DNA from: Clostridia bacterium
GTDB lineage: Bacteria > Bacillota > Clostridia > Oscillospirales > CAG-382
Length of the DNA: 39,571 nucleotides
Direction: 5' to 3'
NCBI GenBank assembly: GCA_017434845.1
Contig: JAFSGD010000068.1
Coordinates: forward strand, 1-39,571
The notes under the pieces were generated by a model. The model worked only from the letters and a program-made list of their open reading frames with translations. It had not been told where the DNA came from and did not search any database. Made by a program: the position numbers and the translations under genes. Shown here in pieces: positions 868-34,732 of this stretch. Every line of letters starts with the position of its first letter. The first letter of the stretch is position 1.

Positions 868-3567
868 ATGAAAAGAACCTTAGCAATCGTTCTCTCTATG
901 CTTCTCGTTCTTCCTTGCATCGCATCCTTCACCGTTTTTGCAGATGTTTGGGCAGGCGAAAAGATCAGAGTTGACGGTACTAACAACGGCGTATGGCAGG
1001 GTAATGCCGGCAGAACCGAGTATTATGATGTTAACTACGCTATCGACGACACCAATCTCTACATTGAGGTTGACTACTACGGCTCCCTCAACGGTACTGC
1101 TTCTTCCTACGGTAACGGCAACGGCACTATGATCCGTATCTGGTTCCATGATGAAGACAAGACCTATGACGGTGCAAAGGCAAGATCCTACACCAGCTTC
1201 ATCGACATTTCTTATGTTGACGGCGCAGTTTGGGATCGCTTCCTTAATAACACCGTTGCTGAAGGCAATACTGCTTCTGTAGTTTATGCTTACAACGACG
1301 GCGCTTCTCGTTCTTACTCCATCAACAGCACCTTTGGTGAAAACACCTGGGTTATGAAGCTCACCATGCCTCTCGCTCTCGTTGGTACCAACGTTCAGTT
1401 CCAGACCACCGTTTCCAACAACGATGGCAGCGCGATCGGCAACGATGCTCTCTACTTTGGCAAGAACGTTCTCTTCAAGGGCGCAAACGGCCTTGCTTGG
1501 TACTGGGATAGAGGTTCGGCTCTTCCCGCTCCCGAAGGAACCGTTGCATACTTCACCGAAACCGACGTTCCCGATGTTGGTACTCACAACAACATCGCAG
1601 TTGGCTCCGATGAATACGGCACCAAGATCAACACCGACAGCTACTACGGCAAGATGGCAGACGGCGTAACTCCTGCTGCAGGATACGACACTGTTAACTG
1701 GCGCGGCTTCCGCGGTGCTGAAAACGAAACCTCCGGCGTTAACGGCTATCAGTTCGTTATCATCGACCTCGGCGAGGTTCGCGAAGATATCGGTTCTGTA
1801 GGTACTTGGTACTGGTCCGCTAACAAGTCCGGTATCGTTCCTCCCTATGAACTCTACTTCTATGGCTCGATCAACGGCTCCGATTGGCTCTACCTCGGCG
1901 CTCCCGATCTTTCCGATGAACTTCACCAGACCGCTAACGACACTGCTGTTTGGGAATATGTAACCTTCGATACCACTCTTGCTGCAAGATATATCATGAT
2001 GAAGGTTTACGCAGGCTACACCTTCAGCTTCTTCGGTGAAATCTCGGTTAACGTTGTTGAAGAACCCGAATTCGAGATTCTCTCGTCTGTTGGCTTCGTT
2101 GGCGGCGACGTAACCATTCTCGTTCCTTATACCGATGATAACGGAACCTATAACACTCCTATGGAAATTTCCGCTCAGATCGGCCCCAATGCAGGCACCG
2201 GTAAGGACTACAACTACTACTCTCTCATCGTTGTCGGTGCAGACGGTAAGGTTGTTTCCACCCACAAGACCATTGGCGACACTGCCCACGGCGATGTTGA
2301 AATCCCCGAAGGCGGTTATATCCTCGCTATGAACGGCGTTCACGAAGAGATCAATAACTGGAACAACGCTATCTATGTTGGCGACACCATCACCCTCAAG
2401 GGCATCGATATCGCAGACTATGCAGGCGTTGCTGCAACCACTATCGAAGGCGCATCCTTCTCCTCTAACCACACTCACGCATACACCGAAACTGTTTATG
2501 AGCCCACCTGTAAAGACGCAGGCTACACCGAAATTACTTGTACCTGCGGCTACAGCGAAGTAAAAGAAGGCTCTGAAGTTCCCGCTACCGGCGAACACGA
2601 TTGGGAAGAATTCGTGAAGGAAGCCAACTGTAAAGAATCCGGCTACACCTCCGATATCTGCTCGAAGTGCGGCACCGAAGTTATCAGAGAAGGCTCTGAA
2701 GTTCCCGCTTCCGGCGCACACGCTTACACCGGCGTTCTTCAGTCCAACGGCTTCTATCAGTTCTCCTGCTCCATCTGTGGCGACTCTTACGTTGGTTACG
2801 AAGATGGCACCGCAGTTATCTCCCTTGCTGTATCCCACAACAACGCATACTCTTGGGCAGCATATGACACCATGATCATCTCTGCTCCCGGCAAGACCGT
2901 TAAGGAATCATGTGGTTACGATTGCCAGTGGTGGGTAATGTACAAGGTTGAATATATCAACGGTAAGTATATCACCACCAGCTATCTCCAGAACTCTCTT
3001 GATATCGGAACCTCCGTTCCTCCCGAAAACGGCTTCCTCTGGCTCGTTCACGGTAACGATCCCGAGTTCACCTACGCTACCGAAGGCAAACTTCTCAACT
3101 ATGAGTTTGTTGCAAGCACCGATACACTCTTCTTCACCACTGCTGCTTCCGAAACTCCTTTAGGATATATCTACGCAAGCCCTGTTGCTGAAGCAGATTA
3201 CACCGCTTACAATGCAGCAGTTGCTAACGCAAATGCTCTTGACGAAAAGGATTACACTCCCGAAACTTGGGCAGTTCTTGCTGAAGCTCTCGCAGTAGAC
3301 GTTTCCGGCAAGTTCGAATACCAGCAGGATGTTGTTGATGCCGCTACCGCAGCTATCAACAATGCACTTCTCGGCCTCGAAGATGCAGAAGTTTCTGTAC
3401 TCCTCGGCGACATTAACGGCGACACCGTGATCGACTCTGTTGACCTTGTTGAACTTGCAGTTGTTATTGCAAACTCTGACACTAACGATGCGGGCGATAT
3501 TAACGGCGATGGCGTAATCGACTCCGTTGACCTTGTTGAACTTGCGGTTGCTATTGCAAACGCATAA
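868..3567 (+). CDS. Large secreted multidomain dockerin protein (carbohydrate-binding-like)
   Basis: This 899-residue exported protein has a signal peptide (residues 1-25, cleavage after VFA). Next is a CBM9/DOMON-like beta region (about 27-230), then a discoidin-like region (about 235-395) containing ELYFYGSINGSDWLYLG. A beta region of unclear type follows. Three small Cys-rich repeats with CxC or CxxC pairs near 557-559, 598-601 and 634-637 resemble the HTHxYT...C repeats of clostridial surface proteins. A FIVAR-like helical region lies at about 775-838. The C-terminal dockerin (846-899) has two nearly identical copies of DxNGDxVIDSVDLVELA. No catalytic domain is recognised, so a binding or structural role is likely. 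The start has a clear AAGGAG site. It is the first gene of an operon with the cohesin-like protein and the small peptide. Confidence 0.85.
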   Translation: MKRTLAIVLSMLLVLPCIASFTVFADVWAGEKIRVDGTNNGVWQGNAGRTEYYDVNYAIDDTNLYIEVDYYGSLNGTASSYGNGNGTMIRIWFHDEDKTYDGAKARSYTSFIDISYVDGAVWDRFLNNTVAEGNTASVVYAYNDGASRSYSINSTFGENTWVMKLTMPLALVGTNVQFQTTVSNNDGSAIGNDALYFGKNVLFKGANGLAWYWDRGSALPAPEGTVAYFTETDVPDVGTHNNIAVGSDEYGTKINTDSYYGKMADGVTPAAGYDTVNWRGFRGAENETSGVNGYQFVIIDLGEVREDIGSVGTWYWSANKSGIVPPYELYFYGSINGSDWLYLGAPDLSDELHQTANDTAVWEYVTFDTTLAARYIMMKVYAGYTFSFFGEISVNVVEEPEFEILSSVGFVGGDVTILVPYTDDNGTYNTPMEISAQIGPNAGTGKDYNYYSLIVVGADGKVVSTHKTIGDTAHGDVEIPEGGYILAMNGVHEEINNWNNAIYVGDTITLKGIDIADYAGVAATTIEGASFSSNHTHAYTETVYEPTCKDAGYTEITCTCGYSEVKEGSEVPATGEHDWEEFVKEANCKESGYTSDICSKCGTEVIREGSEVPASGAHAYTGVLQSNGFYQFSCSICGDSYVGYEDGTAVISLAVSHNNAYSWAAYDTMIISAPGKTVKESCGYDCQWWVMYKVEYINGKYITTSYLQNSLDIGTSVPPENGFLWLVHGNDPEFTYATEGKLLNYEFVASTDTLFFTTAASETPLGYIYASPVAEADYTAYNAAVANANALDEKDYTPETWAVLAEALAVDVSGKFEYQQDVVDAATAAINNALLGLEDAEVSVLLGDINGDTVIDSVDLVELAVVIANSDTNDAGDINGDGVIDSVDLVELAVAIANA

Positions 3568-3599: not shown

Positions 3600-4697
3600 A
3601 TGAAAAAAATTGCTCTTATGCTCGCTATTGCACTCGTTTTGAGTGTTAGCATGTGCGTTTTTGCATCTGCGGAAGGCACCATCTCCGGTGAACTCGTAGT
3701 TACCTACGGTCTTGATGCAGACGGAAACGTAAACATTTCCGACTCGACATTTAACGAGTCTAACACCGGCTATGATCTCGCTATCCCTTCTGATGTTATC
3801 GCAGTTCAGTACAACTTCGATACAAACAACACCGGTTTTGCAGCATATATCTTCGAGCTTAACTATGATCCTACTAAGCTCCAACTTCTCGGTTGCATCA
3901 ACACCGAAACCATGGCTCTCGCTGCAACCGGCGACATGAATGTTCTTGTATTCGATAAGACGAACATCTCCGAAACCTTCGGCGGCGTAGGCATTTTCGG
4001 TGAAGCTACTCCCGATCTCCCTTGGACTGCAGTTGCTGACAATGCAATTAAAGAAGGCGACGAAAAGGGTCCTCTTCGTATAGTTGGTGTCAACGGTGTT
4101 ACTAACTACAAGAAGGGTCTCAAGAACCTCACTTCCGGCGTAGCTGGTTATATCTATTTCCAGCCTATCACCGACGAGGCTTGCGATACCACCATTTCTA
4201 TTCCTTACATGGAAGCTACAGGTGCTGATAAGGTTAAGCACACCGGTTCGGGCAACAGCATTACCATCAAGCTTAACGGCGGCGCTCCCGAAGCAGCAGC
4301 TCCTGTTGTTTCTCTCGGCGCAAAGGTTAACGCTGCTCTCACCGGTCTCCGCTTCGGCGCAACCTACAACAAGATCGAAGAAAACGGCATCGTTAACGAT
4401 CTCGGCATGCTCCTTCTCCCCACCGCTAAGCTTGGCGAAAACACCCTCGATCTCGACTTTGCTGCAGCTAACGCACTCGTTGCTAAGGTTCGCGCAAGAT
4501 CTATCGAAGGCTACGTTGAAGGCTACAACTTCGAAGATTATACTACCTTCAACTTCTATGTAACCCTTCTTGGTCTCGAAGGCCACGAAGATGCTGATAT
4601 CGTTGCTGTTCCTTACATCGTTTATGATGACGGCACCGTTATCTATGCTGACCAGATGGTTCACAGCTTCAACTCTGCTTCCGAAGCAGCAGCATAA
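3600..4697 (+). CDS. Secreted cohesin-like protein
   Basis: This 365-residue protein has a signal peptide (1-24, cleavage after ASA). Residues 27-222 look like a cohesin: a beta-rich domain with the hallmark FELNYDPTKLQLLG and a late GVAGYIYFQPI strand. Cohesins bind dockerins, and a dockerin protein is encoded 32 bases upstream, so a non-covalent pair is plausible. Residues 229-365 form a second domain with a GLRFGATYN core, of a type seen in clostridial secreted proteins but with no function I can name. No sortase motif, S-layer domain or membrane anchor is visible, so surface attachment is unexplained. The start has an AAGGAG site. The cohesin call rests on pattern, not on a search. Confidence 0.7.
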   Translation: MKKIALMLAIALVLSVSMCVFASAEGTISGELVVTYGLDADGNVNISDSTFNESNTGYDLAIPSDVIAVQYNFDTNNTGFAAYIFELNYDPTKLQLLGCINTETMALAATGDMNVLVFDKTNISETFGGVGIFGEATPDLPWTAVADNAIKEGDEKGPLRIVGVNGVTNYKKGLKNLTSGVAGYIYFQPITDEACDTTISIPYMEATGADKVKHTGSGNSITIKLNGGAPEAAAPVVSLGAKVNAALTGLRFGATYNKIEENGIVNDLGMLLLPTAKLGENTLDLDFAAANALVAKVRARSIEGYVEGYNFEDYTTFNFYVTLLGLEGHEDADIVAVPYIVYDDGTVIYADQMVHSFNSASEAAA

Positions 4698-4717: not shown

Positions 4718-4843
4718 ATGAAATATATTGCTCCTGAATTTGATGTTGTTCTCTTCGAATCCGAAGACATCATCACTTCTTCCGGCCTCGCTGTTGAGGA
4801 AGGCGACAACAACGTCAACGTTCCCGGCAGCTGGTGGGATTAA
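4718..4843 (+). CDS. Small SSG...GSWWD peptide, copy 1 (41 residues)
   Basis: A short gene follows the cohesin-like gene by 20 bases, with a strong AGGGGAGG site 9 bases before the ATG. The 41-residue product starts MKYIAPEFDVVLFESEDI, continues through ITSSGLAVEEGD and ends NNVNVPGSWWD. It is acidic, has no signal peptide and no cysteine. The layout resembles a leader plus core peptide: a conserved amphipathic N-terminal part, a possible cleavage point near SSG, and a short C-terminal tail with two Trp and a terminal Asp. No modification enzyme, protease or dedicated exporter is nearby. It is the last gene of the dockerin/cohesin operon. Function is unknown. A secreted signal, a RiPP-like precursor or a partner of the surface complex are all possible. 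Confidence 0.8.
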   Translation: MKYIAPEFDVVLFESEDIITSSGLAVEEGDNNVNVPGSWWD

Positions 4844-4861
4844 TCTCAGCTAACGCTTAAT

Positions 4862-4894
4862 AAAAAGCCGCAGGCATTTGCCTGCGGCTTTTTT
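4862..4894 (+). terminator. Terminator of the dockerin/cohesin/peptide operon
   Basis: The stem GCCGCAGGC/GCCTGCGGC (4867-4875 with 4880-4888) has a 4-base loop and a run of six T. It closes the operon right after peptide copy 1. Confidence 0.92.
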
Positions 4895-5001
4895 GTCGCA
4901 ATGGCGATGTGAAATATATACAAAAATGCTTTGCTGAAAATGTGCATTTATAGCAATAAAAAGGATATTTATGAACCAAATGTAAACAACCTTGAAACCT
5001 A

Positions 5002-5030
5002 TTGAAATGAATTCTTATGCATGGTATACT
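5002..5030 (+). promoter_or_regulatory. Promoter of peptide copy 2
   Basis: TTGAAA at 5002-5007 and TATACT at 5025-5030 are spaced by 17 bases. The leader is short, about 36 bases. The second peptide can therefore be expressed apart from the dockerin operon. Confidence 0.8.
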
Positions 5031-5073
5031 ATCTGCGTAAATGAATGAAAATTATAGAAAGAGGCAGATATAT

Positions 5074-5202
5074 ATGAAGATTTACAACGCACCCGAACTC
5101 GAAGTTATCGTTTTCGAGTCTGAAGACATCATCACTTCTTCCGGTCTCGCTGTTGAGGAAGGCGACAACAACGTCAACGTTCCCGGCAGCTGGTGGGATT
5201 GA
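5074..5202 (+). CDS. Small SSG...GSWWD peptide, copy 2 (42 residues)
   Basis: This is a monocistronic gene with its own promoter, an AGAAAGAGG ribosome site and its own terminator. The 42-residue product starts MKIYNAPELEVIVFESED. From Phe14 to the end it is identical in protein sequence to copy 1, and the matching 87 bases differ at only three synonymous positions. The first 13 residues differ more but keep the same pattern (APE, alternating hydrophobics). Dedicated transcription argues that this is a real gene and not translational noise. As for copy 1, there is no signal peptide, no Cys and no neighbouring modification enzyme. Function is unknown. Confidence 0.82.
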   Translation: MKIYNAPELEVIVFESEDIITSSGLAVEEGDNNVNVPGSWWD

Positions 5203-5224
5203 TCAAATCACAAAGTGTGAATCA

Positions 5225-5257
5225 ACAGCGCGAGCTTTTGCTTGCGCTGTTTTTTTG
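5225..5257 (+). terminator. Terminator of peptide copy 2
   Basis: The stem ACAGCGCGAGC/GCTTGCGCTGT (one G-T pair) with a TTTT loop is followed by a run of seven T. Confidence 0.9.
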
Positions 5258-5308: not shown

Positions 5309-5337
5309 TTGACACTCGGCTTGTTGTGTGTTATAAT
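5309..5337 (+). promoter_or_regulatory. Promoter of rlmB
   Basis: TTGACA at 5309-5314 and TATAAT at 5332-5337 are exactly 17 bases apart, about 30 bases before the rlmB start. Confidence 0.88.
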
Positions 5338-5366: not shown

Positions 5367-6143
5367 ATGAAAGAAAAAAGAAGCTTTAAACCCGATAACC
5401 GACCCGAAGCGCCGGAAGAAGGTCTTTTTATCGGCAGAAACGCCGTTAGCGAGCTGTTAAAGAGCGGCAGGGAAATCGATAAGATATATATGCGCTCCGA
5501 AGCCGACGGTGTTTTGCTTTCGATTCGTGCAAAAGCGCTCGAACGCAAAATCCCTATCGTTGAGTCGGATATCAGACGTTTGGATAAAATGGCGTGCGGC
5601 GGTGTGCATCAGGGTGTTATTGCCGTTGCCGCCGAAACCGATTATCTTTCGGTAGACGAGCTTCTTTCGCTTGTTGCCGAAAAGGGCGAAAAGCCGTTCT
5701 TTCTTATCTGCGATTCCATAAACGACCCCCACAACCTCGGTGCACTTATCCGAAGTGCAAATTGCGCGGGCGTTAACGGCGTTATCATTCCCAAGCGCCG
5801 TGCGGTCGGCGTTAACGGAACCGTTGCAAAATCAAGCGCAGGCGCGGTTTTCGCAATGCCCATTGCCCGTGTGCCCAATCTTGCTTCGGCAGTTAAAACG
5901 CTTAAAGAAAACGGCGTTTGGATCTGGGCTGTCGAGGCGGGTGGAAAGCCCTATTACGACCATGATTATAAGGGCTCTTGTGCGCTGATTCTCGGCAGCG
6001 AGGGCGAGGGTGTTTCCGATCTTTTAAAAAAGGAAAGCGATTTTATCGCGGGCATTCCCATGTTCGGAAGCGTTAATTCGCTTAACGTTTCCGCCGCAGG
6101 CGCGATAGTTATGTTTGAAGCCGCAAAACAGCGGAATAATTGA
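5367..6143 (+). CDS. rlmB: 23S rRNA 2'-O-ribose methyltransferase, RlmB/TrmH (SpoU) family
   Basis: This 258-residue protein has the usual length for RlmB. The N-terminal part (about 18-92) is the substrate-binding domain, starting FIGRNAVSELL. The C-terminal part is a SpoU/SPOUT methyltransferase with all three motifs: NDPHNLGALIRSA (119-131), ILGSEGEG (208-215) and the knot motif PMFGSVNSLNVSAAGA (231-246). The enzyme uses S-adenosylmethionine to methylate a ribose 2'-OH in 23S rRNA (G2251 in E. coli). Related family members modify other rRNA sites, so the exact target is inferred. The start follows GAGGAA. No terminator separates it from the next gene, so the two are probably cotranscribed. 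Confidence 0.9.
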   Translation: MKEKRSFKPDNRPEAPEEGLFIGRNAVSELLKSGREIDKIYMRSEADGVLLSIRAKALERKIPIVESDIRRLDKMACGGVHQGVIAVAAETDYLSVDELLSLVAEKGEKPFFLICDSINDPHNLGALIRSANCAGVNGVIIPKRRAVGVNGTVAKSSAGAVFAMPIARVPNLASAVKTLKENGVWIWAVEAGGKPYYDHDYKGSCALILGSEGEGVSDLLKKESDFIAGIPMFGSVNSLNVSAAGAIVMFEAAKQRNN

Positions 6144-18059: not shown

Positions 18060-18088
18060 TTGACAAACAATGTTTCTTGTGATAGACT
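18060..18088 (+). promoter_or_regulatory. Promoter of the Ser-rich lipoprotein pair
   Basis: TTGACA at 18060-18065 is followed 17 bases later by TAGACT (18083-18088), a weak -10 box. It diverges from the metal exporter promoter. Confidence 0.62.
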
Positions 18089-18094
18089 TATTAC

Positions 18095-18145
18095 GGAGGT
18101 AGAACATATGCAAGCGTTCTTGCTTATTATTAATAAATTAGGAGG
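18095..18145 (+). promoter_or_regulatory. Two ribosome sites serving two in-frame starts
   Basis: GGAGGT (18095-18100) precedes an ATG at 18108, and GGAGG (18141-18145) precedes the ATG at 18153. Both ATGs are in frame. The longer form would add 15 residues (MQAFLLIINKLGGFT) before the lipoprotein signal. The shorter form matches the paralogue and is preferred. Confidence 0.6.
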
Positions 18146-18152
18146 CTTTACT

Positions 18153-18872
18153 ATGAAAAAATTAACTGCGTTAACCTTGTTACTGTGTTTAATCTTCGGT
18201 TTGGCTTCTTGCGTTTCGGAAGTCGGTGAAAGCTCGTCGGCTGCTGAAAGCTCGAAAGCGGCTGAATCGTCGGAAACAGTCGAAGCTTCCAAAGTTGTTG
18301 AATCTTCCGAAGTGATCGAATCCTCTGAAACTGTTGAAAGCCCCGACCCTATAAACAAATCGCCCGAAAGGGTTATTTACAGCGCCCGACCGTTGACAGC
18401 ATGTGAGCTCGACGGCCATTTTGCTCCCGACGGACAAAAATATCGCCTGCCGAATGGCGATGAAGGCTTTGAAACCGTTCTTGAAGAATATAAAACCGAT
18501 AACGAAACTTACTTTTTGGTCGCGCTTTACCCTGAGATGTACAAAGCGTGTGCCGATGAATTGGAAATCGGCAGATTTGTCGACGGGAACGAGCTGGAAT
18601 CCGTTTTCGGAAGATCGCTTGACTATCTTTTGGATATTGGATTTATTCCCGCAAACGATCACAAAATTAATACTACGCCCGATCCGAGCGTCAAAGATTA
18701 TAATTGCGCATATATCGTCGGTTATATGACCGCTGATATGATACTTTCTCTTGATGATCCCAATATGGCGTATCTTGTGTTCCACCTTCCCACCGAAGAG
18801 GATTGGGAAAGAGTCTGGTTAAGTTGCGAAAGACTTATGATACTTAATCCTTATGAAGAAGGCGTGGATTAA
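18153..18872 (+). CDS. Ser/Glu-rich-linker lipoprotein, paralogue 1
   Basis: The start at 18153 gives a 239-residue lipoprotein with a classic signal (MKKLTALTLLLCLIFGLASC, Cys20). A low-complexity linker of ESS and SSE units (about 25-65) follows. The soluble domain (about 75-239) ends with YIVGYMTADMILSLDDPN and HLPTEEDWERVW. I do not recognise the domain. The linker suggests the domain is held away from the membrane, within the cell wall. The next gene is a clear paralogue, with the same signal peptide, linker and C-terminal motifs. They are 27 bases apart and probably cotranscribed. Confidence 0.82.
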   Translation: MKKLTALTLLLCLIFGLASCVSEVGESSSAAESSKAAESSETVEASKVVESSEVIESSETVESPDPINKSPERVIYSARPLTACELDGHFAPDGQKYRLPNGDEGFETVLEEYKTDNETYFLVALYPEMYKACADELEIGRFVDGNELESVFGRSLDYLLDIGFIPANDHKINTTPDPSVKDYNCAYIVGYMTADMILSLDDPNMAYLVFHLPTEEDWERVWLSCERLMILNPYEEGVD

Positions 18873-18899
18873 AAATAATTCTTACAAGGAGGCTTTACT

Positions 18900-19724
18900 A
18901 TGAAAAAATTAACCGCGTTATTGTTACTGCTCTGCTTGGTTTTCGGTTTGGCTTCTTGCGTTTCGGAAGTCGGCGAAAGCTCGTCGGCTGCTGAAAGCTC
19001 GAAAGCGGCTGAATCGTCTGAATCGTCTGAGGATATTGAATCATCCGAACCGGTCGATTCTTCCGAAGTTGTTGGATCGTCTGAAGTCATTGAATCTTCC
19101 GATACCGAGGATTCTTCCGAACCGGTTGAATCTTCCGAGCCCGAAGAAAGCTCCGAACCCGAAGAAAGCTCCGAGAATGATGAGAACTCAAATACCGAGC
19201 AAAAAGAAAAGATCATATATAACACAACGGTTAAAGAAGGCTACGGCGTGAATTTGAGATTAGAGGGCAACTATCAATTTGCCGAGCAGTATGCCGACTT
19301 TTTCCGAACCGACAACCCCGAAATTAAAAAGCTTGTCGAAAAAAACAGAGGAAAAGATGACGTTAAATTCCTTGTTGGTTTATACGTTTTCTCGCGCGAG
19401 GGCGATTGGAGCAGCAATAACGTACCCGATGATAACGAACATCTTGCTGCGACGAAGAGCGGCGAGGAATATCTCAAAAGCATAGGCTTTGAGGTGATTG
19501 AAGATCATACCTGGAGCTATCAGCCCTTTGAAAACGGAGAAAGAGATAATCTTCCTGTCTTCGCCTTGATCGGCTATATGACCGCAGATATGATCGAATC
19601 GATCAACGATCCGAACAACAAATATGTTATTCTTCACCTGCCTTCCGAAGAAAATTGGGAAAAATTCTGGAGCTATGACTACAGAAGAGGTATTTCGTTC
19701 GGGATTGAAGACATCGGAACGTAA
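18900..19724 (+). CDS. Ser/Glu-rich-linker lipoprotein, paralogue 2
   Basis: The 274-residue lipoprotein (lipobox LASC, Cys20) has an N-terminus nearly identical to paralogue 1, including CVSEVGESSSAAESSKAAES. Even the DNA around the ribosome site and start is the same. The Ser/Glu linker is longer here (about 25-100) and richer in PEESSE units. The domain shares FLVGLYVF, ALIGYMTADMIESINDPN and HLPSEENWEKFW with paralogue 1. Elsewhere the two have diverged strongly. This points to an old duplication with conserved ends and changed middle. Function is unknown. A terminator follows. Confidence 0.83.
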   Translation: MKKLTALLLLLCLVFGLASCVSEVGESSSAAESSKAAESSESSEDIESSEPVDSSEVVGSSEVIESSDTEDSSEPVESSEPEESSEPEESSENDENSNTEQKEKIIYNTTVKEGYGVNLRLEGNYQFAEQYADFFRTDNPEIKKLVEKNRGKDDVKFLVGLYVFSREGDWSSNNVPDDNEHLAATKSGEEYLKSIGFEVIEDHTWSYQPFENGERDNLPVFALIGYMTADMIESINDPNNKYVILHLPSEENWEKFWSYDYRRGISFGIEDIGT

Positions 19725-22752: not shown

Positions 22753-24993
22753 ATGAGCAACACCGTTAAGACCAAGCAGAAGAGAACGATAATCATCTGC
22801 GTAGTTCTCAGCGTTCTTCTTCTTGCAGGCTCCGTTTTCGTTATAGTGGATAATCTTCTCCACATGAACGATCCCTACAAGGCATTTGAAAATCAGGATT
22901 TTGCCAAAGCATTTGCCGAAGCACTCGGTAAAGACAGCGTTCGCGATATCACCGAAGAGGATATCGCCAAGGTAGAATCCTTCGTTTATTACTACACTGT
23001 CGGCAACGATACCGAAAACGGTTATGCAACCTATGCATACCCCGTTGTTATGCTCGGCTATAAGGATATGACCGACGACATCATTGAAAACAGCGAAGAA
23101 GAGCCCGCTGAGGATTCCTTCGTTGTTGTTAACGCACAGGTTACCGACGTTGAGGATATCCTCGTGTTCAAAAACCTTCGCGTTCTTCGCACCTTCGACC
23201 TTGCCGAAGTTGGCGAAATGCAGAACAACTGCTATTACACCGAGCTTTATGCCGCATATGGCATGGGCGATGCGCTTCCCTTTGATCAGCTTATCAGCAG
23301 CGTTGCACTCTCCAAGCTCAAGAGCCTCAGCCAGCTCGAAAGCCTTACCAAGCTCGAGCAGCTTTCGCTTGAATACACCGGCATCACCTCGCTCAACGGT
23401 ATCGAAAAGTTCGAAAACCTCACCAAGCTTGATATCGGTAACACCGTTGTTTCCGATCTCTCGCCGCTTTCTTCCGTAACCGGTCTTACCGATCTTTCGA
23501 TCCTTTCTCTCGGCGAGCGTGTTGAGGAGGAAACCGAAGAAACCTCTTCCGAGTCTTCCGAAACCTCCGATACCTCTTCCGAAACCTCCGAGGATAAAGA
23601 AGAAAAGCACACTCATGCCGGCATTTCCGACATCAGTGCTATCGCAACCCTCACCAACCTCAAATCGCTTAACATCGGTAACAACTCTATCGTTGATATC
23701 TCTGCCGTTAAGAATATGACCAAGCTTGAAAGCTTTGTGTTCACCGGCAACTGCGTTGAAAACCTAAATGCACTTTCCGGTCTTACCGAGCTTAAGAACC
23801 TTTATGCGGCTAACAACCACCTCACTGACATCAGCGGCATCGGCGGTTGCACCAAGCTTGAATACGTTACCGCAACCGGCAACAAGATCACCGACATCAG
23901 CGCTCTTTCGGGCTGCACCAAGCTCACCGATCTTGACGTTTCCGCTAACGATATCGCTTCTATCGGCGATCTTTCCAAGCTTACCGAGCTTGTAACCTTC
24001 ACCGCATACGATAACAAGATCACCGATATCAGCTCGCTTTCGGGCTGCACCAAGCTTGTAACTCTCAGCGTTTACGACAACAGAATCGAAACTCTCGGCG
24101 ACCTTTCCAATCTTGATGAGCTCACCGCTGTTTCGATCTATAACAATGACCTTAAGGACCTTAACGGTCTTAACGGCTGTGCTAAGCTTGCAACCATCGA
24201 TGCTTACAACAACAAGCTCGAGGGCAAGCTCGACCTCACCGGCTGCACCGAGCTCGAAACTCTCAACATCTATATCAACGAAGAACAGCTCAATAAGGAT
24301 GAATCCAAGGAAGACGATAAGTCCGAAGAATCCAAGGATGAATCCGAAGGCGAGGCTTCCGAAGCAGCAGAAGACGAAACCTCTGAAGGCGAAAACACCG
24401 AGGGTGAAGAAAACACCGAGGGTGAAGAAAACACCGAGGGTGAAGAAAACACCGAGGGCGAAACCGAAACCAAGCCCGAAGCTCCCGAAGCAACCAAGAT
24501 CGGCATCACCGAGCTTGTTATCAAGGGCTTGAAGAAGCTTGCTACCGTTAACGCTCATGGCAACGCTCTCACCGCAATTCCCGATCTTACCGATTGCGAA
24601 AAGCTTGCAACTCTTACCCTGAACGATAACCTTATCACCGACGTTAAGAACCTTTCTACCGCAACTGCCCTCACCACCCTTAACCTTCAGGGCAATAAGC
24701 TTGTTGATCTTACAGGTCTTGAAAAGGCAACCAAACTCACCACCCTTAACCTCGCAAAGAACGAAATTGTTGATATAACCGCTATCGGCGAGCTCGTTAA
24801 GCTCACCACTCTCGATCTCTCCAATAACAAGATCGAAACTCTCAAGCCCATTATCGACAAATTCCCCACCTCTTCTTCGCTCAACCTCACTGTTTACGGC
24901 AACAAGGTTACCACCGAGCAGATCAATGAGATGCAATCTAAGTTTGCAACCATGAAGATCACCTATATCGAAAAGACCGAAGAAAAGGAATAA
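22753..24993 (+). CDS. Membrane-anchored leucine-rich-repeat protein (internalin-like)
   Basis: The 746-residue protein starts with a basic tail and one membrane helix (about 12-34), with the rest outside. Residues about 186-253, 290-513 and 581-736 are three blocks of 21-22-residue leucine-rich repeats of the SDS22/internalin type, with units such as LTDISGIGGCTKLEYVTATG. The blocks are split by two acidic linkers: a Ser/Glu linker (about 256-288, ending HTH) and a Glu-rich linker (about 514-580) with four copies of NTEGEE-like units. Such surfaces bind other proteins. No sortase signal or enzyme domain is seen. The binding partner is unknown. Strong use of C-ending codons suggests good expression. 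Confidence 0.85.
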   Translation: MSNTVKTKQKRTIIICVVLSVLLLAGSVFVIVDNLLHMNDPYKAFENQDFAKAFAEALGKDSVRDITEEDIAKVESFVYYYTVGNDTENGYATYAYPVVMLGYKDMTDDIIENSEEEPAEDSFVVVNAQVTDVEDILVFKNLRVLRTFDLAEVGEMQNNCYYTELYAAYGMGDALPFDQLISSVALSKLKSLSQLESLTKLEQLSLEYTGITSLNGIEKFENLTKLDIGNTVVSDLSPLSSVTGLTDLSILSLGERVEEETEETSSESSETSDTSSETSEDKEEKHTHAGISDISAIATLTNLKSLNIGNNSIVDISAVKNMTKLESFVFTGNCVENLNALSGLTELKNLYAANNHLTDISGIGGCTKLEYVTATGNKITDISALSGCTKLTDLDVSANDIASIGDLSKLTELVTFTAYDNKITDISSLSGCTKLVTLSVYDNRIETLGDLSNLDELTAVSIYNNDLKDLNGLNGCAKLATIDAYNNKLEGKLDLTGCTELETLNIYINEEQLNKDESKEDDKSEESKDESEGEASEAAEDETSEGENTEGEENTEGEENTEGEENTEGETETKPEAPEATKIGITELVIKGLKKLATVNAHGNALTAIPDLTDCEKLATLTLNDNLITDVKNLSTATALTTLNLQGNKLVDLTGLEKATKLTTLNLAKNEIVDITAIGELVKLTTLDLSNNKIETLKPIIDKFPTSSSLNLTVYGNKVTTEQINEMQSKFATMKITYIEKTEEKE
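24391..24462 (+). repeat. Four tandem 18-bp repeats in the LRR gene
   Basis: The unit GAAAACACCGAGGGTGAA occurs four times in a row, and the last copy differs by one base. It encodes ENTEGE units. Exact repeats of this kind can change copy number by slippage and so alter linker length without shifting the frame. Confidence 0.93.
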
Positions 24994-30542: not shown

Positions 30543-31025
30543 TTAAAGATATTTAGTTATTATCTGCCAGCGCTCGATAAGCGCTTCAAGCGATAACGCC
30601 GCGTTTGCGGGGCTGGTTGAGGGAAGACATATGGCTTCAACGTTGATTTTCGGAAGAATAAGCCTGTTGTAGAGCTCAAACGCCTTTTTTCCGTTGGTGA
30701 ATATGGCTTTGATATTCGCTCGTTCAAGCAAGGGCTTGATGTCGTTGGCGGAAAACGCATTCAGCGTGCTGTCGGCGCTGCCGACGATATCGCATTCGGC
30801 AACAACGTCCCAAACCGCTATTCCGTTCGATAAAAGCATTGCCTTCTTTTCTTCAACCGTTTGAGGAACGGCGCATCCGAGCTCGGCGGAAACAACCCTC
30901 CAAAAGCGGTTTTGCTTGTGTCCGTAAAAGAATCCGCTTTCGCGTGACTTTACGGAAGGGAAGCTGCCGAGAATCAGGATTTTCGAATCACTGTTAAAAA
31001 TCGGTGCGATGGGGTGCGCTATCAT
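30543..31025 (-). CDS. DNA-deoxyinosine glycosylase (uracil-DNA glycosylase superfamily)
   Basis: The 160-residue protein has the short length and motifs of the hypoxanthine/deoxyinosine DNA glycosylases (UDG family 6): ILILGSFPSVKSRESGFFYG near the start, HKQNRFWRVVS, GIAVWDVVAECD and CLPSTSPANA near the end. It removes deaminated adenine (hypoxanthine) from DNA, starting base-excision repair. Its start overlaps the stop of the upstream ABC transporter gene by four bases, so it is translated from the exporter mRNA. A functional tie with an exporter is not obvious. Confidence 0.88.
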   Translation of the reverse strand: MIAHPIAPIFNSDSKILILGSFPSVKSRESGFFYGHKQNRFWRVVSAELGCAVPQTVEEKKAMLLSNGIAVWDVVAECDIVGSADSTLNAFSANDIKPLLERANIKAIFTNGKKAFELYNRLILPKINVEAICLPSTSPANAALSLEALIERWQIITKYL

Positions 31026-32902
31026 ACAAGCTGTGCCTTGTCTTGCTGAAGCTTATAAAGCTCGTAATACCTGCCCTTCTTTTCAAGAAGCTCGTTGTGG
31101 GTGCCTTGCTCCTTGATTTCGCCGTGCGAAAGATAAATTATGTTGTCGGCACGGCGAATGGTTGAAAGCCTGTGTGCCACGATAAGCAGGGTTCCGATGT
31201 TCATAAGCTTCTCGAGGCTGTCTTGGATCAAAACCTCGGTTTCGGTATCAATGTTTGCCGTTGCCTCGTCAAGAATCATAATTTCGGGCTTGTGTACGAT
31301 CGTTCTCGCAAACGAAATAAGCTGGCGCTGTCCCGCCGAGAAGTTGGCACCGCGCTCCATAACCTCTTCGTCAAGCCCCGAGGGAAGCTTATCGAGAAGC
31401 TTGTCGGCGTTAACGTAACGGCAAGCCTTTAGCACCTCTTCATCCGAAACGTCTTCTTTTCTGAGCAGAATGTTCGAACGAATGGTTCCCGAGAACAGAA
31501 AAACATCCTGAAGCATCTGACCGAAATGCCTGCGAAGCGAAGATATGGTATATTTTCGAATGTTTATACCGTCGATAAGAATCTCGCCGCGCTGAATATC
31601 ATAGTTGCGGCAGATAAGCGAAAGGATCGTGGTCTTGCCCGAGCCGGTCGAGCCGCAGAACGCAACCGTTTGTCCTGCTTTAACCTTAAACGAAACGTCC
31701 TTTAAGACCCAATCGCCCTCGTTATAGGCAAACCAAACGTTTCTGAACTCGATATCGCCTCTAACGTCGGTAAGCTCGATTGCATTGTCTTCATCAACAA
31801 CGTCGGGCTTGATATCAAATACGGTGAATATCTTTTCTGCCGATGCAAATGCCGATTGAAGCCAGTTGAACTGCTCGGCAAGGTTTTGAATCGGGTTAAA
31901 GAACTTCGAGATATACATATAAAACGCAACAACGACACCGCCGGTTATCTTCTGACCGAGGAAAACGGTATCGTTTATATATCCTCTTGCGCCAAGATAA
32001 AGCAGGCACAGCACCGAGGAGATATAAAGCATATAAACAAGGGGACGGAATATGCCGAAAACGAACATCTGGCGGAATTTTGCCGATTTAAGTTTGGTGT
32101 TCTTGCCCTCGAATTCCTCCATTTTGCGATCCTCACGGTTGAAGATCTGAATTATCTTCATGCCCGAAAGGTTCTCGGAAAGGAAGGTGTTGATGTCGGT
32201 CGTGCCGTCTTTGACCTCGCGGTATGCCTTGCGCGAGAATTTACGGAAAATAACCGTAAACAGCGCAATAAAGGGGGCGAAGCAAAGCACCATAAGCGTT
32301 AAGCCGTAGTTAAGAAGAAGCATTGCACCGATAACGCCAACGATAATGAAAACGTTCTTCAGCAAATTAACGAGAATGTTCGTAAACATCATCGAAATAG
32401 CGTTGGTGTCGTTGGTAACTCTCGTAACCAGCTTACCTACGGGCATTGTGTGGAGCTGTGCGTGAGAAAGGCTTTCAATGTGCGAAAACAGGTCTTCTCT
32501 GATCGCCGAGAGGATCTTTTGACCTATTTTTTGAAGCATTATAGCCTGAACGTAGGTTGAAACGAGCGATACCGCAAGAATAAGCGCATAAACGATAACG
32601 TAGCTTATAAGGCTTTTATATTCGAAGTCGCCCTTTATCATTTCTTCGACGTTACCGATAAGCGTTGGCGAGATGATGTCATAGGCGATCGAGAAAAGCA
32701 TTATTATCATAACGAGAATAAAGCTCTTTGCGTGCGGCTTTGCATATTGCATAAGCCTTTTTATTATCTCGGAATCCTTCATGTTTCGGTCAAATCCGAT
32801 TGCTTCTTTTCGGTCTTTTATCGAAAAATAAGCCAAAATGAAGATGACCGAGATAACGCCGACAACGGCGCCAACGGTTAAAAGCGGATAAAATTCATAC
32901 AT
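31022..32902 (-). CDS. ABC exporter half-transporter with canonical ATPase residues
   Basis: The ATG at 32902 follows GGGAGG. A longer frame would overlap the upstream gene. The 626-residue product has an extra N-terminal helix (about 4-26), then the six-helix exporter domain (to about 350) and an ATP-binding domain. Its Walker A is GSTGSGKTT, the signature is FSAGQRQL instead of LSGGQ, and Walker B is MILDEA with the catalytic Glu. It pairs with the next gene upstream as a heterodimer. Substrates of such BmrCD/LmrCD-like pumps are drugs, lipids or peptides. The partner supplies the intact signature for the active site. Confidence 0.9.
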   Translation of the reverse strand: MYEFYPLLTVGAVVGVISVIFILAYFSIKDRKEAIGFDRNMKDSEIIKRLMQYAKPHAKSFILVMIIMLFSIAYDIISPTLIGNVEEMIKGDFEYKSLISYVIVYALILAVSLVSTYVQAIMLQKIGQKILSAIREDLFSHIESLSHAQLHTMPVGKLVTRVTNDTNAISMMFTNILVNLLKNVFIIVGVIGAMLLLNYGLTLMVLCFAPFIALFTVIFRKFSRKAYREVKDGTTDINTFLSENLSGMKIIQIFNREDRKMEEFEGKNTKLKSAKFRQMFVFGIFRPLVYMLYISSVLCLLYLGARGYINDTVFLGQKITGGVVVAFYMYISKFFNPIQNLAEQFNWLQSAFASAEKIFTVFDIKPDVVDEDNAIELTDVRGDIEFRNVWFAYNEGDWVLKDVSFKVKAGQTVAFCGSTGSGKTTILSLICRNYDIQRGEILIDGINIRKYTISSLRRHFGQMLQDVFLFSGTIRSNILLRKEDVSDEEVLKACRYVNADKLLDKLPSGLDEEVMERGANFSAGQRQLISFARTIVHKPEIMILDEATANIDTETEVLIQDSLEKLMNIGTLLIVAHRLSTIRRADNIIYLSHGEIKEQGTHNELLEKKGRYYELYKLQQDKAQLV

Positions 32903-32918
32903 TTTTGCTTCCTCCCGT

Positions 32919-34694
32919 TCACATTCCTGCTTCAAGATCGTTAAGGCGCTGAAGCTCAACCATATTGCGATAATCGCGGTTGCGGTTATAAAGCTCGTTG
33001 TGCGTTCCAACGTCTAAAAGCTTGCCGTCATCGATAAAAATTATCTTATCCATGTTTTCAATGGTTGTAATTCTGTGGGCAATAAGAATGGTCGTTTTGC
33101 CCTTTCTTGTGTTTTTAAGGTTATCAAGAATAACCTTTTCTGTTTTAACGTCAACCGCCGAAACCGAATCGTCAAGAATAAGTATTGCCGCATCCTTCAT
33201 AAGCGCGCGTGCAATCGAAATTCTTTGCTTCTGACCGCCCGAAATCGTAACGCCGCGCTCGCCGAGCACGGTTTTGTAGCTTTCGGGGAAATCGATTATG
33301 TTTCCGTGAACGTCAGAAAGCTTTGCCGCTTCTTCGATCTTTTCCTGCGAAATGTCATCAGAGGCAAACGCGATGTTTCCTTCGATCGTGTCGCTGAAAA
33401 GGAAATTATCCTGCGGAACGTAAGCCGCGGCAGAGCGAAGGAACTTTATCGGAATGGTGTTGATATCGTTTCCGTCGATAAATACGGTTCCGTCGGGCAC
33501 GTTATAGGTTCGAAGAATAAGGTCGGCAACGGTTGTTTTGCCCGCACCCGTTCTTCCGACGATGCCAACGTTTTCGCCGGCGTTTATTTTAAACGAAACG
33601 TCGCTTAAAACGTCATATTCGCCGTCGGGATAGCGGAAGGTAAGGTTTTTAAATTCGATAGAGCCCTTGATAGCATCGGGGGTCTTAACGCTTTCGCTGT
33701 CGGTAATGTCGGGCTTCGAATCGAGAAGCTCGCCTATTCTGTTAAGCGATGCCTTTCCGCGCGAGCCCATTTCAATAAGCTGTGCAATAGCCATAATAGG
33801 CCAAACGATAGCGTTGAAATAGCCGATAAACTCAACGAGCTGACCTGCGTTGAAGGCATCGGTATAAACAAGATATCCGCCATAGCCGAGAATAACGCAG
33901 ATAACCGATTCAACAAGCAGCGTTACGGCAACGTTAAGCTTAACCGAAAGCTTTGTGTATTCGATGTTGGCATCCTCGTTATCCTTGTTAAGCTTGCGGA
34001 ACGCCAAAAGCTCCTTGGCTTCTTTAACAAACGCCTTTATAACTGCAATGCCCGCAAAGCTTTCCTGCGAAAAATCCGAAAGCGAAGAGAACGCTGCCTG
34101 ACGTTTTTCCCATTTTAACGTCATGTATTTTCCGACGATCATACCGCCGATAAGCATTATTGTCATCGGTATCATCGAAAGACCGGTTAAAAGCGGATCC
34201 ATTCGGAACATTTTAATTATTGCCAACGCGCCGAGCAGAACGGCATCGAAGAACATCATAATACCCATGCTGAAGCAATCCTGCACGGTTTCGAGGTCGT
34301 TTGTGAAAAGCGACATAAGGTTGCCGACCTTGTTGTGCTGATAATAATGCTGTGAAAGAGTGCGGCAACGGTCGAACATTTCGTTTCTTAATGCCGTTTC
34401 GATCTTTATTCCCGCGCCAAAAAAGCAAACGCGCCAAAGGAATCTGCCGAAAATGAGCGCAAGAATAACGAAAAGCATCGGGCGGCATATCTCATCGAGC
34501 AAAAACGCCATGTCGAAGGGAACCTCAACGCCGTCCTTTATTCCAACGCCCTCGTTGATGCCGTTGATAACCATTCTGTAAAGCTCGGGAACGATCAACT
34601 GCATATAGTCAACGAGAATAAGCGCACCTATGCCGAGCAAAAGCATCGGAAGATAGCGCAAATAATATTTGTTAATGTGTTTTCCGAAGAGCAT
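32919..34694 (-). CDS. ABC exporter half-transporter with degenerate ATPase site
   Basis: The ATG at 34694 follows a GGAG site. An upstream in-frame TTG is less likely. The 591-residue protein has six exporter helices (about 15-300) and an ATP-binding domain with Walker A GRTGAGKTTV, the intact signature ISGGQKQR and Walker B LILDDS, where Asp replaces the catalytic Glu. This is the classic degenerate partner of a heterodimeric exporter. The partner gene starts 16 bases after its stop. It is the first gene of an operon of two transporter halves and a DNA glycosylase. Confidence 0.9.
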   Translation of the reverse strand: MLFGKHINKYYLRYLPMLLLGIGALILVDYMQLIVPELYRMVINGINEGVGIKDGVEVPFDMAFLLDEICRPMLFVILALIFGRFLWRVCFFGAGIKIETALRNEMFDRCRTLSQHYYQHNKVGNLMSLFTNDLETVQDCFSMGIMMFFDAVLLGALAIIKMFRMDPLLTGLSMIPMTIMLIGGMIVGKYMTLKWEKRQAAFSSLSDFSQESFAGIAVIKAFVKEAKELLAFRKLNKDNEDANIEYTKLSVKLNVAVTLLVESVICVILGYGGYLVYTDAFNAGQLVEFIGYFNAIVWPIMAIAQLIEMGSRGKASLNRIGELLDSKPDITDSESVKTPDAIKGSIEFKNLTFRYPDGEYDVLSDVSFKINAGENVGIVGRTGAGKTTVADLILRTYNVPDGTVFIDGNDINTIPIKFLRSAAAYVPQDNFLFSDTIEGNIAFASDDISQEKIEEAAKLSDVHGNIIDFPESYKTVLGERGVTISGGQKQRISIARALMKDAAILILDDSVSAVDVKTEKVILDNLKNTRKGKTTILIAHRITTIENMDKIIFIDDGKLLDVGTHNELYNRNRDYRNMVELQRLNDLEAGM

Positions 34695-34732
34695 AACCAA
34701 ACTCCGAATATATCAAAAATAATAACCTGATA

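Follow-up and report, generated by a model that had tools for sequence, protein, structure and literature searches.

The closest described relatives of the system considered here are the linear polyphosphorylated peptides (LPP), with the components LppA, LppB, LppS, LppK, LppN and LppD (Popov et al. 2026, PMC13381572). According to that paper, LppB presents the precursor to the SipW-like LppS, which cuts after a Thr, and lasso and LPP leaders are bound by RiPP recognition elements (RREs) through a [Y/W]xxPx-hydrophobic motif, shared by PQQ leaders. Further points of comparison are lasso peptide systems with a discrete B1 protein (TbiB1/TfuB1, PDB 5v1u, 6jx3) and the PqqA/PqqD system.

The window, that is, the whole stretch of DNA analyzed, comprises 39,571 nucleotides of a contig from a Clostridia bacterium (assembly GCA_017434845.1, contig JAFSGD010000068.1) and contains two tiny genes, A and B, whose products represent an apparently undescribed peptide family. 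As judged from sequence, the RRE–peptidase pair of this genome is the one described for the LPP RiPP system in 2026. We see an even chance that a peptide processed by this pair provides, in trans, the C-terminal tail that is fused in cis to sister CTD proteins, CTD denoting a common C-terminal module of secreted proteins. RREs are familiar from the biosynthesis of RiPPs. If the tail does act in trans, this would be a new use of RiPP recognition, in the assembly of surface proteins. The features of the peptide region and of the genes upstream are as follows.

868..3567, plus strand: 899-aa protein with a C-terminal dockerin type I (PF00404, 25.0 bits, cut-off 22.9)
3600..4697, plus strand: 365-aa secreted protein (crude signal-peptide rule), its gene ending 20 bp before peptide A
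4302-4694, plus strand: CTD of the 365-aa protein (CTD profile A2, E 1.0e-41, the protein itself being in the profile)
4718..4843, plus strand: peptide A, 41 aa (family profile E 5.0e-19, A itself being in the profile)
about 4718-4777, plus strand: leader of peptide A through the Thr (putative border)
about 4778-4840, plus strand: tail or core of peptide A, SSGLAVEEGDNNVNVPGSWWD (putative border)
4862..4894, plus strand: hairpin and T run after A, similar to an intrinsic terminator (fold z -5.94; absent from the pattern scan)
5002..5030, plus strand: promoter-like site of peptide B, TTGAAA-17-TATACT (a consensus match only, 10/12)
5074..5202, plus strand: peptide B, 42 aa (ORF and comparison with A)
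about 5074-5136 and about 5137-5199, plus strand: leader and tail or core of peptide B (putative border)
5224..5251, plus strand: intrinsic terminator-like hairpin of peptide B (12 pairs and a T run; fold z -5.44)
5367..6143, plus strand: SpoU-type rRNA methylase, rlmB-like, a conserved flank marking the position of peptide B (PF00588, 3.2e-41)

Both ORFs, of 41 and 42 codons, were located where the first-pass annotation had placed them, and their last 29 residues are identical as it had claimed: 84 of the 87 nucleotides match and the three differences are synonymous. In the 36 nucleotides 5' of this shared stretch the two genes match at just 21 and differ at 15, and this pattern points to selection on the protein together with duplication or conversion of the 3' part. 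The strong ribosome site attributed to each gene is present before A (GGGGAGG); that of B is weaker (AGAAAGAGG). The promoter and terminator ascribed to B have counterparts in the promoter-like site and the hairpin listed above, and a strong hairpin also follows A. Neither peptide contains cysteine, and no signal peptide is recognizable by eye, in agreement with the earlier description. In 7 of 10 congeners with fetched peptide loci a family gene lies upstream of an rlmB-like gene, the latter judged by eye from its product (present in G022, G016, G020, G005, G013, G012, and G009; otherwise in G008, G010, and G011), which suggests that B is the resident copy and that A is the one associated with the 365-aa gene. 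A perfect 12/12 promoter-like site, in which TG precedes the -10 hexamer, is found at 5309-5337, upstream of the rlmB-like gene of the window.

Homologues with conserved amino-acid sequence, whose absence had been named beforehand as a refuting outcome, were found in quantity. A tblastn search with one peptide (E<=1) gave matches in 51 of 149 genomes, the own genome counted. With starts assigned by script, the 31 loci taken from it yielded ORFs of 33-65 aa, most of them preceded by a ribosome site that is clear by eye; the profile built from them gave 118 matches at E<=0.1 in 55 of the 149 genomes, again with the own genome counted, among which the match in G113 (within a 596-aa frame) and the weak ones in G081 and G103 are doubtful. 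A phylum-wide spread of the family was considered and rejected: 3 of 398 genomes of a phylum-wide draw matched at E<=0.001, and one of the 3 is the own genome. The searches of Pfam, NCBIfam, and PHROGs returned nothing over cut-off (one Pfam row stands at E 0.11), and no paper on either the peptide family or the CTD was found among the open-licence papers listed.

The family motif is YxxPxhExxxFxxxDhITxS, followed by a variable tail rich in Gly, Asp, Asn, and Trp; A and B have a leader of the type YxxPE[LF]xV..F.SEDIIT. Across 65 peptides aligned at a Y or F, which fixes position 1 by construction, the leader shows Y at position 1 in 56, P at 4 in 59, E at 7 in 46, F at 11 in 41, D at 15 in 51, T at 18 in 39, and S at 20 in 48, and conservation falls beyond this point. 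G, D, S, and N abound in the tails, Trp occurs in 42 of the 65 cores, and from genome to genome the cores vary strongly. The window pair and G104 combine a conserved core with a drifting leader; a pair in G085 shows the opposite, an identical leader with a varying core. That cores are held and leaders free within a genome was rejected as a general rule, since in leader and core alike 24 within-genome pairs, some rows of which are mis-anchored, resemble each other more than between-genome pairs do.

The only PqqD match over cut-off in the own genome is a discrete RRE (PF05402, 69.5 bits, cut-off 23.4), whose gene overlaps that of a putative peptidase; the precursors lie on C66 and the RRE on C68.

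L036:9600-9860, minus strand: discrete RRE, 86 aa (PF05402), on a contig other than that of the peptides
L036:9140-9607, minus strand: archaeal-type/SipW-like signal peptidase, 155 aa (weak model matches), its gene overlapping the RRE gene by 8 bp

A profile of the RRE matches the chains of TbiB1, PbaB1, TfuB1, and LppB. Thirteen leader-contact residues of LppB are named in PMC13381572; seven are identical in the own RRE (L32, N33, I56, Y60, D70, F74, and M78), and the other six differ, which we count against our explanation. The 155-aa peptidase matches TIGR02228 (1e-8), SipW (4e-4), and Peptidase_S24 (4.5e-4), in every case below the curated cut-off. Its Ser32, His71, and Asp86 are invariant across 7 homologues, and a profile of these homologues matches a signal peptidase I structure at 8.4e-5. 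Because of the leader motif, the pocket residues, and the co-occurrence described below, we consider it highly probable that the leader of A and B is bound by the discrete RRE and cut by the SipW-like enzyme. The suggestion of a leader-core, RiPP-like precursor is favored as far as the leader is concerned, by the YxxP motif, by the co-occurring discrete RRE paired with an SpI-like peptidase, and by family genes near an RRE elsewhere. A 110-aa YspA-like SLOG protein (PF10686; L036:8811-9143, minus strand) is encoded after the RRE–peptidase pair, and a related gene lies near the RRE in 9 loci.

The likeness to LPP, as that system is described in the paper, comprises a discrete RRE with an archaeal-type SpI peptidase, precursors with a conserved YxxP leader and a variable C-terminus, a Thr near the leader end with a nearby Ser, and RRE loci in relatives that carry HprK-like, NTP transferase, and ABC genes. 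Compared with the LPP leader given there, YxxPxVLxHQxIxFETxxS, the family of A and B keeps YxxPx-hydrophobic and the late T and S, but HQ and FET are absent. The differences from the published system lie in the remaining components and in their arrangement. An HprK-like kinase was not detected in the own genome (best E 0.07 with a 6-sequence profile; assembly 88% complete). The NTP transferase and an MsbA-like exporter are not in the RRE cluster: the one NTP_transf_5 match over cut-off (PF14907) is on a third contig, apart from both the RRE and the peptides, and an ABC profile found neither an MsbA-like exporter nor another ABC gene at the own RRE locus, L036. A generic ABC pair is present at 31022-34700 of the window. 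Furthermore, the own precursors lie outside the RRE cluster and next to a secreted-protein gene, and a like tail occurs in cis on CTD proteins. Since an HprK-like kinase and a clustered precursor are both wanting, we do not class the system as LPP, although its front end, RRE and SpI, would work alike. The own RRE also belongs to the PqqD family (PF05402), which is its likeness to PqqA/PqqD. With the lasso systems that have a discrete B1 the own system shares the YxxPxL leader and the RRE sequence family, and differs in having no B2 peptidase match in the own genome, a different leader peptidase, and no ring-acceptor pattern.

Peptide and RRE occur together. A strong RRE was taken to be present in the 58 genomes with PF05402 at E about 7e-12 or better, where some frames are longer than a discrete RRE. 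Peptide and strong RRE are both found in 46 of the 149 genomes, the peptide only in 9, the RRE only in 12, and neither in 82 (Fisher p 2.6e-18), counts that ignore phylogeny and in which paralogues within a genome are not independent. The association holds in the genus (both, peptide, RRE, neither: 13, 2, 1, and 8; p 0.0005), in the rest of the family (14, 3, 8, and 14; p 0.008), and in the rest of the order (19, 4, 3, and 60; p 2e-12). The nine peptide-only genomes include one with a strong peptidase match at a contig start (G016), three with weaker ones (G017, G113, and G047), and five with no peptidase match at E<=1e-4 (G042, G060, G081, G106, and G124); both the nine without a strong RRE and the five also without a peptidase weigh against our explanation. 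Eight congeners have neither peptide nor strong RRE, and seven of them have no peptidase at E<=1e-4, the eighth (G021) having a weak match in a 229-aa frame. One genome, G003, has RRE and peptidase with no peptide match.

At 61 RRE loci (60 fetched and the own one) a SipW-like peptidase is encoded within seven genes in 36, and a family peptide lies in the fetched flank in 11, three times on the other strand. A partly overlapping set consists of 80 named RRE loci, the best of a longer list, mostly from Clostridia metagenome assemblies, many of herbivore guts, with several short contigs; here the peptidase is found at 52, HprK-like at 62, ABC at 33, NTP transferase (NTP_transf_5) at 17, and a family peptide at 8. 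The CTD is found at none of these 80 best loci, a further point against our explanation. Upstream of the RRE at two loci, L226 and L206 (Clostridium manihotivorum), there are weak family-like ORFs of the type YVKPxFExVELxxEERxA... (E 0.9-3) with Cys-containing tails, beside HprK–RRE–peptidase–ABC genes; these are possibly in-cluster precursors.

C-terminal sorting and anchoring modules of secreted proteins include dockerin, LPXTG, and the T9SS CTD. The CTD described here resembles them in being a common C-terminal module on unlike secreted proteins (GH25, GDSL, cohesin, and Ig-like) and differs in having no covering Pfam family in the proteins tried and no PDB sequence match at E<=1, and in that its tail can be a separate gene. 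A recurrent secreted domain is thereby brought to light that the searches of Pfam and of PDB sequences left without a match. The 365-aa protein upstream of A lacks a Trp tail; Pfam and NCBIfam gave no match to it, and the PDB sequences none that is meaningful. The first-pass annotation had placed A last in a dockerin/cohesin operon and had advised a check for dockerin genes among the neighbors. A dockerin is indeed present, on the 899-aa gene two genes upstream; for the 365-aa gene neither Pfam nor NCBIfam gave a cohesin match. A cohesin is found in a CTD paralogue elsewhere in the own genome, L174 (26.8 bits, cut-off 24.1), whose alignment with the 365-aa protein is confined to the CTD. The partners that do recur with the peptide family are an RRE, a SipW-like peptidase, and CTD proteins.

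Among 45 peptide genes with flanks (43 fetched and the two in the window), 18 have, as a raw count, a same-strand gene at most 40 bp upstream whose product passes the crude signal-peptide rule. Many of these upstream secreted products have the common CTD, with invariant LRF, G, P, and Y in 11 sequences. Among the matches listed, the CTD is found in 30 of the 149 genomes, with up to 25 copies per genome, and 27 of the 30 have a peptide match and 27 a strong RRE. In the CTD genomes, with 150 CTD matches listed, 25 of 64 peptide matches lie at most 700 bp downstream of a CTD match on the same strand, one of them being peptide B at 380 bp, and none of the 64 is found at close range in any other arrangement. 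Eleven of the 25 pairs had supplied the CTD profile, so that at most 14 are independent, and 28 of the 55 peptide genomes have no CTD match among the matches listed; both facts tell against our explanation. The RRE and signal-peptidase-like pair tracks tiny genes that often stand behind secreted-protein genes. In some large proteins (L175, L176, and L183-L187) the CTD is internal, with about 350-780 residues following it, and is therefore not always C-terminal.

Tails similar to those of the peptides are fused to other CTD proteins. The own genome has two further CTD proteins, L174 and L173, of which the cohesin-CTD protein L174 ends in GEGDTVIYPGTGWFN, the own peptide tail being EEGDNNVNVPGSWWD; at 15.8 bits and E 0.094 this similarity is itself counted against our explanation. 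The second, L173, has no tail at its end, which falls near a contig edge, and does not enter the count. In relatives the cis tails are RPGDNVVYPGTGWFE (G016), SGDNTVIVGPSWWN (G047), and, in G123, DNDASWPWN three times and DNDYSDPWN. The fetched CTD loci gave 76 distinct closed CTD ORFs, reduced to 56 by dropping L173 and 19 ORFs with more than 60 residues after the domain; here, too, paralogues within a genome are not independent. Trp occurs in the last 10 residues of 18 of 37 CTD proteins without a downstream peptide gene, against 1 of 19 with one (p 0.001) and 89 of 1288 other ORFs. The contrast weakens as the stretch considered shortens, to 13 of 37 against 1 of 19 in the last five residues (p 0.02) and 10 of 37 against 1 of 19 in the last three (p 0.08), which weighs against our explanation, as does the fact that 19 of the 37 have neither a Trp tail nor a peptide gene and that one CTD protein, in G026, has both.

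Scored against the pool of peptide cores, the CTD ends without a peptide gene outscore 400 sampled ORF ends (p 1.9e-9) as well as the CTD ends with a peptide gene (p 3.7e-5), and just slightly outscore their own shuffles (p 0.024), so the similarity of tail and core is partly one of composition. Genome-specific matching of tail and core was rejected as not significant (p 0.11; 17 tails in 9 genomes). As for the earlier idea that the peptides are factors of a surface complex, the context speaks in its favor, as family genes often come directly after secreted-protein genes and a like tail is fused to such proteins. The further suggestion made at the outset, a secreted signal, keeps some likelihood.

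From the family, its leader motif, the RRE–peptidase pair, and the cis tails we infer the following course of events. A and B would be leader-tail precursors. The discrete RRE would bind the leader and present it to the archaeal-type signal-peptidase-like enzyme, which would cut at or just after the conserved T-x-S and so free a tail of 19-21 residues ending in WWD. By a presumed export route, the freed tail might then be used in trans by the CTD of the 365-aa secreted protein encoded alongside, in the role that the fused C-terminal Trp tail has in sister CTD proteins, most likely by docking, anchoring, or completing a strand at the cell surface. The split-tail proposal is put forward because of gene order and the complementarity of cis and trans tails, and it suggests that a cell-surface protein can receive one of its parts from another gene. 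The fuller statement, that RiPP-type machinery delivers from a separate micro-gene a Trp-ended tail that completes or anchors the CTD of a secreted protein, no natural product being made, is tentative, and we hold it at somewhat less than even. No export route for the tail came to light, and this counts against our explanation. If true, the proposal would suggest a function test for LPP-type systems, and the role of LPP is called unknown in PMC13381572.

The peptides might instead be an LPP-like linear RiPP, a secreted bioactive or signaling peptide, the adjacency to secreted-protein genes then reflecting co-regulation with surface or feeding functions. The RRE loci of relatives carry the LPP core set, as given in PMC13381572, in the proportions reported above for the best 80 loci, the cores differ strongly between genomes, and the G085 pair combines an identical leader with a varying core, all as such a product would lead one to expect. 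Yet in the own genome the HprK-like kinase and the clustered NTP transferase are missing at the thresholds given and the precursors are scattered; moreover, the window pair and G104 hold the core while the leader drifts, and one would not expect a free natural product to have counterparts fused in cis to CTD proteins. We regard this reading as rather unlikely. Less probable still is an intracellular helper that binds the nascent CTD as a chaperone or secretion pilot, the RRE and peptidase merely turning the peptide over. It would account for the lack of a signal peptide on the peptides, for the lack of an ABC match at the own RRE locus, and for a peptide gene directly after a secreted protein in many loci, but it leaves unexplained why a like tail is carried by sister CTD proteins, with which it would leave the cell.

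That A and B are lasso peptide precursors is suggested by YNAPEL...IITSSG, in which the YxxPxL sequence and a Thr close to the end of the leader recall lasso leaders, and lasso PqqD models match the RRE at scores under their cut-offs. We rejected this reading: the own assembly, 88% complete, gave 0 matches to B2 (Transglut_core3, PF13471) at E<=10, and by eye no Asp or Glu is fixed at ring position 7-9 across the family, so that it is most improbable. For chance ORFs or a non-coding repeat one could cite the very short ORFs and the 87-nt near-identical repeat, but the differences are synonymous only, ribosome sites are present, and the protein motif is conserved in 55 of 149 genomes; this reading, to which we assign practically no weight, is refuted by conservation.

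Repeats are also found elsewhere in the window. Two near-identical stretches, 18140-18271 and 18887-19018, offset by 747 bp, fall within and about the neighboring ORFs 18060-18872 and 18900-19724 and may have arisen by tandem duplication, and repeated 25-mers resembling a tandem repeat occur at 24391-24458, inside a 746-aa ORF (22753-24993).
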